NCBI GenBank assembly: GCA_021818955.1
Contig: JAKASR010000001.1
Location: forward strand, 62,001-126,000
Direction of reading: 5' to 3'
Length of the DNA: 64,000 bases
From: Acidobacteriota bacterium
GTDB lineage: Bacteria; Acidobacteriota; Terriglobia; Terriglobales; SCQP01
Shown here: one piece after another, positions 494 to 5,861 of the stretch
How the letters are laid out: each line of letters begins with the position of its first letter
How positions within the stretch are numbered: the stretch's first letter is position 1
Program-made: the position numbers and the translations under genes
Notes under the pieces: generated by a model
Told to the model about the DNA's origin: nothing
The model's input: only the letters and a program-made list of their open reading frames with translations
The model's database searches: none

Positions 494-1120
494 CTAGAGC
501 AAGCCTTTGGTGGAAGGCAGCCGCCCGCGCAGGCGGGCATCGCGCTCGCAGGCGGAGCGCAGCGCCCGCGCGAAGGCCTTGAAGGCGGCTTCCACCTTAT
601 GGTGGCTATTGCGGCCGGCGACGGTGCGCACATGCAGGTTGGCGCGCGCGGCCATGGCGAAGGCTTCGAAAAAATCCTCCAGCAATTCGGCATCGAGATC
701 GCCCACGCGGCGCACGCGCAGCGGAAGGCGCAGCACCGCCTTGGGCCGTCCGCTGAAATCCACCGCCGCCAGCGCCAGGGCTTCATCCATGGGCATCAGG
801 AAATAACCGGCGCGGCGGATGCCGCGCTTATCGCCCAGCGCCCGCGCAAATGCTGCGCCCAGGGCCAGGCCAGTATCTTCCACGGTGTGATGCTGGTCCA
901 CGTCCAGATCGCCCTGAGCGCGCAGTTCGAGATCGAAGCCGCCATGCATGGCGACCAGCTCCAGCATGTGATCGAGAAAGCGCACGCCAGTGGAGACCTG
1001 GGCGCGGCCGCGGCCTTCGAGCGCCAGCGACAACTCGATACGGGTCTCGCGGGTGGAGCGGCGGATATGCGCGCGGCGCGCGGCGCGGGCGGCGGGTTTT
1101 TTCCCGGGCATGGGGTTCAT
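494..1120 (-). CDS. hisB: Imidazoleglycerol-phosphate dehydratase HisB
   Basis: Cytoplasmic Mn-dependent dehydratase converting imidazole glycerol phosphate to imidazole acetol phosphate. The 208-residue protein carries the family metal-binding signatures: FLDHMLE near residue 50, [10 protein letters not shown] near 75-85 and [17 protein letters not shown] near 165-180. It is the monofunctional form, with no fused N-terminal phosphatase, so the histidinol phosphatase must be encoded elsewhere. Its ATG overlaps the stop of the upstream HAD gene by four bases. The first 20 residues are Arg/Ala-rich and extend slightly beyond the usual family start. Confidence 0.97.
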
Positions 1121-1998
1121 CGCTCCTTTTCCGCCAGCAGGCGCTCGGCCAGGGCATTGATGGCGGGAAAAATCCGGCGGCAGCCGCTGCCGCGAAATAA
1201 CCGGCGCAACGCCGCGGGGGTATGATGCGTGTCCGGCAGAATACCGTAAAAGGGAACGCCGGCGGAGGCGGCGCAGCGGGCATCATCTACGGTGTCGCCG
1301 ATATAGGCAGCAATCGGCGCCGGCGCGCAGTCGCGAAGCAGGCGCCGCAAGCCTTCCGGATGCGGCTTCACCCGCCGCACGTCTTCATGCCCGATCAGCC
1401 GGGGAAAGGCCGATAATTTGCGGAAACGGCGCAATACATACTCGGCCTGCGCGCGCGGGCGCCCAGTAAAGATGGCCAGGCGATAGCGGCGGCGCAGGCG
1501 GGCCAGCAGCTTGCGGTCGAGCAGCCAGCGCTCGGCGCGGATCAACCCGCGGGCGCGGCGCGGAAAACCGGCGCCGAGATAATAACCATCGAAGGCGGGC
1601 ACCAAGGCGCGCAAGGGCACGCTCAGGCCGCGGCGCCGCAGCAGCTCGCGGGTGACGTGCCAATCGTTGTTATAACCGCCCAGATTTTTAAGGGCTTGAA
1701 CTTCCTTATCCGTGACCTGGCCGCCGCCGAAATGGCGCACGGTTTCCAGGATGGCCCGGCGGTACGAGCCGTTGACGTCCACCAGCACGCCATCCAGGTC
1801 GAACACGAGCCAGGGCCGCGGCGCCATGGCGCCCGAAGACAAAGCCGCACTAGCGCCGGAACGCAAAGCCGCATTCGCGCCACTATTTGAAGTTGCGCGC
1901 CGGAGGCGGGTCGAAGCGGCGCGGCGCACTGGACGCCGAAGGCGAGACCTGGAAGAGCCGGGTTTACGCGCGGAAGCTTTGGCGTTAGGCGTGGACAC
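1117..1998 (-). CDS. HAD-superfamily hydrolase inside the his operon; candidate histidinol-phosphatase
   Basis: All four HAD motifs are visible: [10 protein letters not shown] (motif I, nucleophile Asp) after residue 60, IFTGRP (motif II), VKPHPEG (motif III lysine) and IGDTVDDA (motif IV). This is a subfamily IA-type phosphatase of about 235 residues. The open frame starts at a GTG overlapping the hisC stop by 14 bases, which gives an extra 57 low-complexity Arg/Ser/Ala residues. An internal ATG at 1827 ([10 protein letters not shown]) would give the compact domain and may be the true start. It sits between hisC and hisB, and no hisN, hisK or bifunctional hisB is visible, so histidinol phosphate is a plausible substrate (inference from context). 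Confidence 0.8.
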
Positions 1999-3088
1999 GG
2001 CCAGGCTCCTTCCATGCCGCCCAGAGCGCCGCCAAGGCGCGTTCCGTCTGGGCCAGCGTGCCGCAGGTCATGCGCAGCGCGCCGGGATGATCGCCGCGGC
2101 GGTCGCGCAGCAGTATGCCCTGGCGGTGCAAGCTTTCCAGCAGCGGCTGGCACTGCTCGCCGGCATAAAACAAAACGAAATTGGCCGCGCTCTCCCACCA
2201 GGTAATGCCGCGCTCGCTGAAAGCCGTTTCCACCCGTGCGCGGCTGGCCATCACCTCGCGGCGATAGGCTTCCACCCATTCCCGGTCGCGCATGGCGGCC
2301 CGCGCCGCCGCGAGCGCGGCTACGTTGACGTTATAGGGCGAATGGGTTTTCCGAAGCGCCGGCATCAGTTCGCTATGCGCGAACAGGCAGCCCAGGCGCA
2401 GGCCGGCCAGCCCAAAGGCTTTCGAGTAGGTGCGCGCCACCAGCAGATTGGGGCGGCTGAAGACATCCGGCAGCAGGCCGCGGTAGCCGGACGCGACAAA
2501 CTCGGCATAGGCTTCATCCACAAAAAATGCGGTTTCGGGATACTCGGCCGCAAGGTCGAGCAGCGCCTGGGGAGAGGCGAGATGTCCGGTGGGGTTGTTG
2601 GGGCTGGCGATAAAGACCAGCCGGGTCGAGGCGCCGATAGTGGCGCGCAACTCGGCGAGATCGAGCGAGAAGGTGCGGCGTCCGGGGCCGGTTTCGCGGT
2701 CGCGGTATCGCAGCCGGACCAGGCGCGCGCCGCTTTGCTGGGCGTAGAAGCGGTAGATGGTGAAGCAAGGCTCGACGATGACGACTTCATCGCCGGGTCC
2801 GGCAAACAGGGTGACGGCAAGCTGGATGGCGTCGTCCACGCCATTGGTCAGCAGGCAGGTGGCGGGGCTGTGCTCCCAGCCAGCGCTCAATTCGGCTTCG
2901 GCCGCGGCATAGTCGGGATAGCGCGCCAGCGTCTCGCCATCCAGGGCGCGCATTGCTTCCAGCACGCGCGGCGAGCAGCCCAGCGTGTTTTCGTTGAAAT
3001 CCAGGCGCAGTCCGCGGCGGTCTTCAATGGGGGGATGGTAGGCTTCGAGCGCGGCAATGAGCGGGCGCAGGCGGGGCAGGCGGTTCAT
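1985..3088 (-). CDS. hisC: Histidinol-phosphate aminotransferase HisC
   Basis: PLP-dependent class I/II aminotransferase converting imidazole acetol phosphate and glutamate to histidinol phosphate. The 367-residue protein shows LDFNEN near the N-terminus, SPNNPTG, FVDEAYAEF and the PLP-lysine region ARTYSKAFGLAGLRLG. The ATG at 3088 ([11 protein letters not shown]) overlaps the hisD stop by four bases. The frame stays open further upstream, but that part lies inside hisD and is not family-like. The stop overlaps the GTG of the following HAD gene. Confidence 0.96.
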   Translation of the reverse strand: MNRLPRLRPLIAALEAYHPPIEDRRGLRLDFNENTLGCSPRVLEAMRALDGETLARYPDYAAAEAELSAGWEHSPATCLLTNGVDDAIQLAVTLFAGPGDEVVIVEPCFTIYRFYAQQSGARLVRLRYRDRETGPGRRTFSLDLAELRATIGASTRLVFIASPNNPTGHLASPQALLDLAAEYPETAFFVDEAYAEFVASGYRGLLPDVFSRPNLLVARTYSKAFGLAGLRLGCLFAHSELMPALRKTHSPYNVNVAALAAARAAMRDREWVEAYRREVMASRARVETAFSERGITWWESAANFVLFYAGEQCQPLLESLHRQGILLRDRRGDHPGALRMTCGTLAQTERALAALWAAWKEPGRVHA

Positions 3089-4398
3089 CGCCGTCCTCCC
3101 GCCCGCAACTCGACTGAGCGGGCATGCGCTTCCAAGCCTTCCGCCCGGGCCAGCACGGCAATATCGGGGGCCAGGCGCGCCAGCCCGGCGGACGTCAGTT
3201 CCTGGACGGTGATGATTTTCAAGAAATCGTACACGGATAGGCCGCCGCGCAAACGCGCCAGCCCGGCGGTGGGCAGCACATGATTGGCGCCGCTCATGTA
3301 ATCGCCTACCGCCTGCGGCGCATGCGCGCCGGCAAAAATGGAGCCGGCGTTGCGCACGCGGTTTTCCCAGCCGGCGGGCACGGTAATATGTTCCGGCGCC
3401 AGCCGATTGGCCAACTCGGCCGCCTGGGCGAGATTGCGAGTGAGGAGGACGGCGCCGCGCCGCGCCAGGGCGCGCGCCGCCACATTCCGGTTGGGTTGCG
3501 GCAGGTCCGCCAATTGGCGCTCCAGTTCGGCCTCGACCCGGCGCGCCAGGGCGCGGCTGGGGGTCAGCAGCCAAGCGGCCGCGTGCGGATCGTGTTCCGC
3601 CTGGGCGAGCAGGTCGGCGGCGACGGCGGCGGGCGGCGCGTCCGCGCCGGCCAGCCACAGCACCTCGGTAGGCCCGGCGGGAAAATCGATGGCGCAGTCG
3701 TGGGCGACCAGTTGCTTGGCGGCGGTGACATAGAGGTTGCCGGGGCCGACGATTTTATCCACCTTGGGCACGGATTCGGTGCCGTAGGCCAGGGCGGCTA
3801 TGGCCTGCGCGCCGCCGATGGCGTAAAGCGCCTCGACGCCGGCCAGCCATGCCGCGCCCAGCACTACCGGCGAGGGCGCGGGACAGACCGCCAGCACGCG
3901 CCCGACCCCGGCACGACGCGCCGGCAGCGCGGTCATCAGCAAAGTGGAAGGCAGCGGATGCCGGCCGCCGGGAATGTAGCAGCCCACCAACTGCAACGGG
4001 CGCAGCACCTGGCCGATCCACACGCCCGGCTCGACCGCCCGGCGCCAGGCACGCGGCCGCTGCCAGCCAGCCATGCGATCAATGTTGCGGGCGGCATGGC
4101 GCAGGGCGCGGCGCAGCGGGGCGGGCAGCCCCAACCAGGCGGTTTCCATGGCCTCGCGGCCGTAGCGCAACGGCTCGCCCGCAACGGCTCCCGCGGTTTT
4201 ATGGACAGCGCCAGGCAGCAGCAGGTGGCGGCCCTCCAGTTTCCGGGTCCAATGCCGCAGGGCGCGGTCGCCGCGCCGCCGCACCTGGGCCACAATCGGC
4301 GCGACTATTTCCAGCGCCCGTTCGTGCTCGCGGCGCGAGGCGCGCAGCCAGCGCTCCAGCGCGGCGGCATCGGTATGATCGAGGCGGCGCAGTTTCAT
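3085..4398 (-). CDS. hisD: Histidinol dehydrogenase HisD
   Basis: Zn- and NAD-dependent enzyme oxidising histidinol to histidine in the last two steps of the pathway. The 437-residue protein shows the family blocks [73 protein letters not shown] and [21 protein letters not shown], the last being the substrate/Zn region. Length is normal for the family. It overlaps hisG (upstream) and hisC (downstream) by four bases each in ATGA junctions. Confidence 0.98.
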
Positions 4399-5288
4399 AG
4401 CACGATTTTATTCAGCGGATACTCCACGATGCCCTGCGCGCCGGCGGCTTTCAACCGGGGCAGGATCTCACGCACCCGCCGCTCCTCGATGACGGTGTTG
4501 ACGGCCACCCAGTCCGGATCGCTGAGCGAAGAAATCGTCGGCCGGTGCAGCGCGGTGAGCACCGTCAGCACGGCGTCGAGCGATGCCCGCGGCGCGTTCA
4601 TCATCAGTCCCACCAGGCCATAGGCGGCGATGGCGCTTTCCAGCATCAGCTTCAAGGTGGAGATTTTCTGCGCTTTCCAGGCGTCCCGGAGCGATTCCGG
4701 ATTGGCGATCAGTTGCGTGTTCGATTCGAGCACGGTTTCGACAATGCGCAGCTTGTTGGCGCGCAGCGAGGAGCCGGTCTCGGTGACTTCCACAATGGCG
4801 TCGGCCAGCACCGGCGGCTTCACCTCGGTGGCGCCCCAACTGAATTCCACCGTCGCCTTGACGCCACGCGCTTGCAGATAGCGCGTGGTTACGCCCACCA
4901 GCTCGGTGGCAATCACCTTGCCTTGCAGATCTTCGACGCGGCGGATGGGCGAGTTTTCCGGCACCGCCAGCACCCAGCGCACCTTGCTGAAGCTCTGCTT
5001 GGCATAGATCAGGTCGGCCAGAGTCGTGACCCGGGCCTGGTTTTCCAAGACCCAATCGCGTCCGGTGAGGCCGAGATCGAGGATGCCGTCCTGCACATAG
5101 CGCGCCATCTCTTGCGCGCGAATCAGCATGCACTCGATTTCTTCATCGTCAATCGCGGGAAAATAGGAGCGCGACGAGACCTGCACCTGATAGCCGGCGC
5201 GCGCCAGCAGCGACGCAGTGGCGTCCTGCAGGCTGCCTTTGGGAATGCCCAGGCGCAGCCGGGGCGCCTGATTATTATTGGCGGCCAT
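4395..5288 (-). CDS. hisG: ATP phosphoribosyltransferase HisG, long form
   Basis: First committed enzyme of histidine synthesis, joining ATP and PRPP. At 297 residues it is the long form, with two catalytic lobes ([14 protein letters not shown] at the N-terminus, [10 protein letters not shown], and [12 protein letters not shown] as the PRPP-binding region near 185) plus a C-terminal ACT-like regulatory domain, as expected for direct feedback inhibition by histidine. The start chosen is ATG 5288 ([11 protein letters not shown]). The frame is open upstream but that part lies in hisI. It overlaps hisI by 14 bases, and no separate hisZ is needed. Confidence 0.97.
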
Positions 5289-5655
5289 AGACGTCCTCCG
5301 GTTGAAACACGCGCTCGCCGGTTTCGCGATAGCCGCCGTCTTGCCATTGGCTGAAGAAACAACTGCGGTGGCCGGTGTGGCAGGCGGCCTGCAAGCCTTC
5401 CATCTCGACCCGCAGGAGCAGCGCATCGCCGTCGCAGTCGGCGTGCAGGCTGAGCCAGCGCAGGCGGTTGCCGCTGGTCTCGCCCTTGGTCCAGAGCTTG
5501 CACCGGGATCGGCTCCAGAAGGTGACATAGCCGGTGGCCAGGGTGCGTGCGTAGGCCTCGCGGTTCATGTAGCCGACCATCAGCACCGCGCCATCGGCGG
5601 CGGCTTGCACGATGGCCGGCAGCAATCCGTTCTCTTTGTCGAAATCCAGTTCCAT
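5275..5655 (-). CDS. hisI: Phosphoribosyl-AMP cyclohydrolase HisI
   Basis: Metal-dependent opening of the PR-AMP purine ring, third step of histidine synthesis. The 126-residue protein has KGETSGN, the Asp/Cys cluster [11 protein letters not shown] and the Zn ligand block [10 protein letters not shown]. There is no fused HisE pyrophosphohydrolase domain and hisE is not in the window. The start at 5655 is preceded by a good AAGGAAGGA Shine-Dalgarno; an in-frame ATG at 5670 overlaps that SD and is less likely. First structural gene of the operon, downstream of the leader peptide and hairpins. Confidence 0.95.
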
Positions 5656-5701: not shown

Positions 5702-5736
5702 AACGCCCGTTCGCGCCAGCCGGCGGAACGGGCGTT
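5702..5736 (-). promoter_or_regulatory. Strong hairpin in the his leader (attenuator candidate)
   Basis: Perfect 11-bp inverted repeat (AACGCCCGTTC / GAACGGGCGTT) with a 13-nt GC-rich loop, lying between the leader-peptide stop at 5763 and hisI. No long U-run follows it on the minus strand, so it is either a non-canonical or Rho-assisted terminator, or part of a fold controlling hisI translation. Its position after a His-rich leader peptide is that of an attenuator stem. Confidence 0.6.
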
Positions 5737-5762
5737 TGCAAGCGCTACAACGCAGCCGCGCT

Positions 5763-5822
5763 TCACCCATCCAGCCGGTGGGCCGGGTGGCAATGCGCGT
5801 GGTGATGGCGCTGAACTTGCAT
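5763..5822 (-). CDS. hisL: Histidine-rich leader peptide of the his operon
   Basis: Nineteen-codon ORF, MQVQRHHHAHCHPAHRLDG, with six His codons among positions 6-15. It ends 107 bases before hisI and is followed by a strong hairpin. Amino-acid-rich leader peptides upstream of the matching biosynthetic operon are the classic sensors of charged-tRNA supply: ribosome stalling at the His codons would select alternative RNA folds. The start codon lies only about 10 nt after the -10 element, so the mRNA would have a 0-6 nt 5' leader with no Shine-Dalgarno. Homology was not checked; the call rests on composition, position and promoter. Confidence 0.85.
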   Translation of the reverse strand: MQVQRHHHAHCHPAHRLDG

Positions 5823-5831
5823 GAAACTAAC

Positions 5832-5861
5832 ACTATACGGGCGGGAAGCGGGCGCTGTCAA
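5832..5861 (-). promoter_or_regulatory. his operon promoter (TTGACA-18-TATAGT)
   Basis: On the minus strand a perfect -35 TTGACA (5861-5856) and a five-of-six -10 TATAGT (5837-5832) are separated by 18 bp. Transcription would start around 5828-5822, at or just before the leader-peptide ATG at 5822. This is the best-matching sigma70-type promoter noticed in the window. Confidence 0.8.

Follow-up and report, generated by a model that had tools for sequence, protein, structure and literature searches.

The 64,000-nt stretch of Acidobacteriota DNA analysed here (the window) contains a his operon whose first gene, hisI, is preceded by a promoter, a short His-rich ORF and a hairpin. Do these elements together form an attenuator that senses histidine supply, and can its leader be translated from an mRNA that begins at, or almost at, the leader AUG?

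A His-rich leader ORF upstream of hisI

All putative attenuator elements and his genes of the window are located on the minus strand. The upstream elements are the following:

5861-5856, minus strand: -35 box TTGACA, found in the sequence; a near-consensus -35 box is present in most relatives
5837-5832, minus strand: -10 box TATAGT, 18-nt spacer to the -35 box, supported by the sequence and by relatives
5823-5831, minus strand: 9-nt gap between -10 box and ATG; transcription start predicted from the sequence at the ATG or within about 3 nt of it
5822-5763, minus strand: His leader ORF MQVQRHHHAHCHPAHRLDG followed by a stop, ATG at 5822, no Shine-Dalgarno (SD) sequence; seen in the sequence and conserved in relatives
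5763-5778, minus strand: region 2, putative antiterminator strand CCGGCTGGATGGGTGA, overlapping the last leader codons and the stop; from duplex folding
5726-5736, minus strand: region 3, 5' arm of the hairpin, AACGCCCGTTC; from sequence and folding
5702-5712, minus strand: region 4, 3' arm of the hairpin, GAACGGGCGTT, followed by the degenerate U-run TTGCCGTCTC; from sequence
5667-5659, minus strand: SD sequence of hisI, AAGGAAGGA; from sequence

Downstream genes are arranged in the order hisI-G-D-C-(HAD)-B:

5275-5655, minus strand: hisI (phosphoribosyl-AMP cyclohydrolase), first gene of the operon, ATG at 5655 (PF01502, 6.8e-32)
4395-5528, minus strand: open frame of hisG, whose real start lies downstream of 5528 (PF01634, 5.3e-44)
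3085-4398, minus strand: hisD (PF00815, 1.4e-136)
1985-3658, minus strand: open frame of a hisC-like aminotransferase, Pfam match from residue 217 (PF00155, 1.4e-53)
1117-1998, minus strand: HAD-family hydrolase between hisC and hisB (PF13419, 2.5e-18)
494-1120, minus strand: hisB (imidazoleglycerol-phosphate dehydratase; PF00475, 5.6e-62)

The source genome has one copy of hisI. Judged from its position, the HAD-family hydrolase (1117-1998) is a possible candidate for histidinol-phosphate phosphatase.

An earlier sequence-only reading had described a near-consensus promoter (TTGACA-18-TATAGT), a 19-codon ORF with six His codons and a perfect 11-bp hairpin before hisI, and all of these are confirmed in the sequence. 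The inverted repeat (5736-5726 and 5712-5702) is extended inwards by four further pairs with one bulge; the whole hairpin comprises 15 pairs, with a folding energy of -27.4 kcal/mol.

The His leader upstream of hisI is not a chance occurrence. On both strands of the window (128,000 strand-bases), no other sORF of up to 40 amino acids has at least five His in 12 residues. When the 350 nt upstream were dinucleotide-shuffled 2000 times, an ATG-initiated sORF of up to 25 amino acids with at least six His never appeared. In the surroundings of leuA, trpE and ilvB in relatives (403,502 strand-bases), two comparable His-rich sORFs were found, one of them starting with ATG, without a scoring promoter.

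Conservation in Acidobacteriota

That this locus is a his attenuator with a leaderless or near-leaderless leader mRNA was the core of the sequence-only reading, and it gained support when upstream regions of related hisI genes were compared: the His-rich ORF, the spacing between -10 box and ATG and the paired stems recur throughout the family of the source organism and in 12 further families, the transcription start being predicted from sequence. In the organism's own family (f1), a His-rich sORF lies between the -10 box and the hairpin in all ten hisI-bearing genomes. In a phylum-wide sample, the leader is present in 21 of 21 inspected members of the sister family f2. It also precedes hisI in families f3, f16, f25, f30 (one of two genomes), f34, f45, f47, f59, f77 and f84, and in f22 it sits before hisG, which gives 13 families with f1 included. 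Among public genomes, such leaders also occur in records of Bryobacterales, Acidobacteriaceae and other Terriglobia, while hisI genes from outside Acidobacteriota lack them, except in two Poribacteria. The leader of Acidobacteriaceae bacterium KBS 96 (L017) reads MWFRSHRHHPHHHRSMA.

In about 20 other families, no leader was found at hisI, hisG or hisD, f26 containing one weak His-containing ORF. In the few leader-negative loci inspected (L052, L063, L092, L115 and L121), the region upstream of hisI appears to be coding, so hisI is not the operon head there. One leader (L032) has three His and falls under the threshold; at L023 no leader was found upstream of hisI.

Outside the His run, the peptide sequence is not conserved between families. 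The His run itself, its position, the hairpin and the complementarity are kept, and the leader is in every case located directly upstream of a his gene.

Several loci depart from this arrangement. In an Acidobacteriaceae metagenome-assembled genome (MAG; L028), a TTGACA..TATACT promoter is directly followed by a terminator hairpin with U-run before hisI and the leader ORF is lost; the attenuator seems to have undergone an internal deletion in nature. The f22 leader before hisG (L223 and L252, genome G150) is MQLSSLNIHLHHHHHVHHTRVM, with a T-rich terminator. In Candidatus Poribacteria, leader ORFs are situated 259 (L031) and 209 nt (L038) upstream of hisI; these leaders, MQTLNRQPQFHIPSHHWHWWRCVEGSGMPLLR and, in part, SHHWHWWWHRVEGS, respectively, mix His and Trp codons; each has a stretch resembling an SD sequence and a terminator rich in T. 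They could possibly belong to an attenuator that senses both His and Trp.

Predicted alternative pairing of the leader RNA

Folding of the leader RNA was used to look for alternative states, as the sequence-only reading had envisaged, and two were found by computation. In the first, regions 3 and 4 form the hairpin (3:4); in the second (2:3), the 5' arm is bound instead by region 2, which extends over the leader stop. The two exclude each other. For the pairing of the leader 3' end, CCGGCUGGAUGGGUG, with CGCCCGUUCCGCCGG of the 5' arm in the window, the computed energy is -25.5 kcal/mol, versus -27.4 kcal/mol for the hairpin; the former value refers to pairing with 5736-5720 when the stretch 5790-5745 is offered to the duplex fold. 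The pairing is stronger than in about 95% of shuffles (0.045).

Similar complementarity is found throughout the set of 60 leaders. Ranked against dinucleotide shuffles by how well the leader 3' end pairs with the 5' arm, 30 of the 60 fall at or below the 5th percentile and 53 at or below the 20th. The fraction of the arm paired with upstream RNA was 0.83, compared with 0.60 in shuffles. Individual loci yield modest statistics, and the G+C content of the 2:3 helix is high. In many MAGs of Bryobacterales and Acidobacteriaceae, the pairing segment lies just past the leader stop, within reach of a terminating ribosome. Arm pairing was also compared between a ribosome at the His codons and one at the stop (0.84 versus 0.48), but RNA length confounds these values and the shuffle control is used instead.

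Family f2 permits a closer look. Its 2:3 helix of 10 bp joins GUGUCRGCGG-like with CCGCYGACGC-like segments, the register being set by the near-constant GCGG/CCGC ends in 16 distinct sequences. In this register, 92.5% of cells are paired versus 89.2% after shuffling, with one of 500 shuffles as high, and three pairs are changed on both sides, with a covariation score matched by two of 500 shuffles; the sequences are related, and such controls overstate significance. Slid registers are all paired to 59% or less. This covariation is supportive of the 2:3 helix, not conclusive.

Proposed mechanism

Promoter, ORF, hairpin, complementarity and conservation all lend support at the sequence level, and we consider it very probable that the locus attenuates transcription of the his operon by means of a ribosome that senses His-tRNA while translating a leaderless leader ORF. 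From these features we infer where transcription starts, how the ribosome stalls, how termination occurs or is lost, and how the system responds to His, as follows. RNA polymerase would start at the leader AUG or a few nucleotides away, and a ribosome would load directly onto the 5' end. With ample charged His-tRNA, the ribosome would pass the six His codons, reach the stop and cover region 2 (5778-5763); the 3:4 hairpin (5736-5702) could then form and transcription would end before hisI. With His-tRNA scarce, the ribosome would stall at the His codons and leave region 2 free to pair with region 3. The hairpin would thus be blocked and hisI-G-D-C-B transcribed.

Putative termination at the hairpin

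Of the 60 leaders, 57, that of the same-genus relative included, have a hairpin with a U-run behind it, so termination in the group is most likely intrinsic. In the window this is different: its hairpin is followed by UUGCCGUCUCUG, which has no U-run (T-score 2.4). Post-hairpin sequences of the window species and of its same-genus relative are UUGCCGUCUC and UUUUUGUUUU, respectively, and the relative (L003) has T5GT4 after the same hairpin (GAACGGGTTTTTTGTTTT). The difference is most simply viewed as lineage-specific decay. Degenerate terminators also occur in a second lineage, at L101 and L155 (f16), where the hairpin in terminator position likewise has no U-run.

Because the U-run is absent, efficient intrinsic termination is doubtful in the window species, whose attenuator may be weaker or reliant on Rho. 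In a rival reading, the switch by ribosome position would be retained in this species, with the leader termination, its U-run having decayed, being Rho-dependent or reduced to a pause. The low T-score and the f16 loci speak in its favour, as does LeuL1 of Streptomyces lividans, which is leaderless, as the window leader is predicted to be, and likewise has no typical Rho-independent (U-run) terminator (PMC8079986). Against it stand the T5GT4 of L003 and the intact window hairpin, and loss of the U-run in one lineage may just weaken attenuation. We regard Rho or a pause as a possibility for the window species, though not the probable one.

In view of the missing U-run, the sequence-only reading had suggested that control may act on translation or through Rho. 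For the group as a whole this is unsupported, given the prevalence of U-runs and a hairpin that is clear of the hisI SD. Translational attenuation, in which alternative structures would expose or mask the hisI ribosome binding site, could draw on the window's lack of a U-run and on a weak CCGUC/GACGA stem beside the hisI SD in the minimum-energy fold. However, the 3:4 hairpin does not include the SD and stops about 35 nt ahead of it (5702 versus 5667), which makes translational control less likely, and relatives bear U-run terminators instead. We hold this mode to be very improbable.

Predicted leaderless initiation

Transcription usually starts about 7 nt past the -10 box. When the best promoter was taken for each distinct Acidobacteriota leader, the distance from the end of the -10 box to the leader ATG was 6-10 nt in 55 of 58 cases, mostly 8-10 nt; 0-3 nt of mRNA are therefore predicted to precede the leader AUG. 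The -35 box is weak in the group L013-L030. SD-like 4-mers occur 18-4 nt before the leader ATG in two of the 58 leaders, as against 40 of 58 before hisI. Spacing of the -10 box and absence of SD together make translation of the leader ORF from a leaderless mRNA a strong prediction, the start site itself being a predicted one. The opposing view is that the leader belongs to a longer or SD-led ORF read from an upstream transcription start. An in-frame upstream start codon, within 150 nt and before any stop, is indeed present in 31 of 58 leaders, but the almost universal promoter-like -10 box just ahead of the ATG and the rarity of SD-like motifs render this view very improbable.

The promoter pattern alone proves nothing, as its strict leaderless form has nine matches in the source genome versus seven for the reversed control. 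Among these matches, only the his site runs into a short amino-acid-rich ORF. The eight other strict TTGAC-TANNNT-ATG sites (L161 and L163-L169) open directly into ORFs of at least 162 codons, which suggests further leaderless genes, with a pattern count barely above that of the reversed control. An earlier genome survey predicted about 13% leaderless genes for Acidobacteria, with 9.7-19.4% in three of them (PMC3160421).

No comparable leaders were found at leuA, trpE and ilvB in 14 genomes, so the link between the amino acid and its operon is a specific one. Metal binding is a known property of His-rich peptides, and the peptide varies greatly between families; yet it is precisely the His run, its position, the hairpin and the complementarity that are conserved, always next to a his gene, and it is hardly credible that the promoter merely drives the operon while the ORF is an untranslated accident or encodes a small metal-binding peptide.

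Relationship to known attenuators

Within the window, no Rfam family matched at the gathering threshold, and only unrelated chance matches appeared at E up to 10. Covariance models of T-boxes, riboswitches and known Rfam leaders such as His_leader accordingly gave no match.

The ribosome-mediated hisL attenuator of Escherichia coli and Salmonella similarly combines a short His-rich ORF, competing RNA structures and a terminator before the first structural gene, where most leaders of the present group have a hairpin with U-run. The E. coli leader has an SD-led 5' UTR. It contains seven consecutive His (PMC3896937), whereas the His run described here is interrupted, the mRNA is predicted to be leaderless, hisI is the first gene and there is no Rfam match.

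Leaderless leader ORFs are reported from Actinobacteria, namely leuL, trpL, ilvL and thrL of S. lividans and ilvB of Corynebacterium diphtheriae (PMC8079986, PMC5784534). There too the sORF contains the regulated amino acid and is followed by hairpins. They concern other amino acids in another phylum, and no His member is listed for S. lividans. C. glutamicum has leaderless his operons and a his leader of another kind. In trpL/peTrpL of Sinorhizobium meliloti, the 5' end of the attenuator RNA coincides with the ATG of the leader sORF (PMC7298713), as is predicted here; this system differs in sensing Trp, in its alphaproteobacterial host and in a peptide with reported functions in trans (PMC7298713). 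Mycobacteria reportedly have leaderless poly-Cys sORF attenuators (Canestrari 2020, cited in PMC13236596), which likewise would sense one amino acid, in this case Cys. Leader peptides of hisS/hisZ in bacilli (PMC2965389) are also His-rich sORFs outside Proteobacteria and Actinobacteria, but control tRNA synthetase paralogues in Firmicutes. The literature searched, with most subscription journals outside its coverage, contained no description of a his leader from Acidobacteriota. The device thus appears to work like attenuators long known elsewhere, and its widespread leaderless habit would be its distinctive feature.

In Acidobacteria, almost no predicted attenuator had an associated function (Naville and Gautheret 2010, PMC2965389). 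The his leader would assign a function to attenuators in a major phylum where hardly any had one, and would add this phylum to Proteobacteria, Actinobacteria and bacilli as users of his leader peptides. It is conceivable, though unlikely in our estimate, that the leaderless start is itself part of the mechanism, the ribosome loading on the AUG at the very 5' end once the RNA emerges and being phase-locked with the polymerase from the first codon, and the window lineage terminating without a U-run; were phase-locking true, much of the phylum would have retained a his attenuator devoid of 5' UTR for that reason. The 58 predicted leaderless leader ORFs represent a natural set for testing how ribosomes couple to RNA polymerase without an SD sequence.
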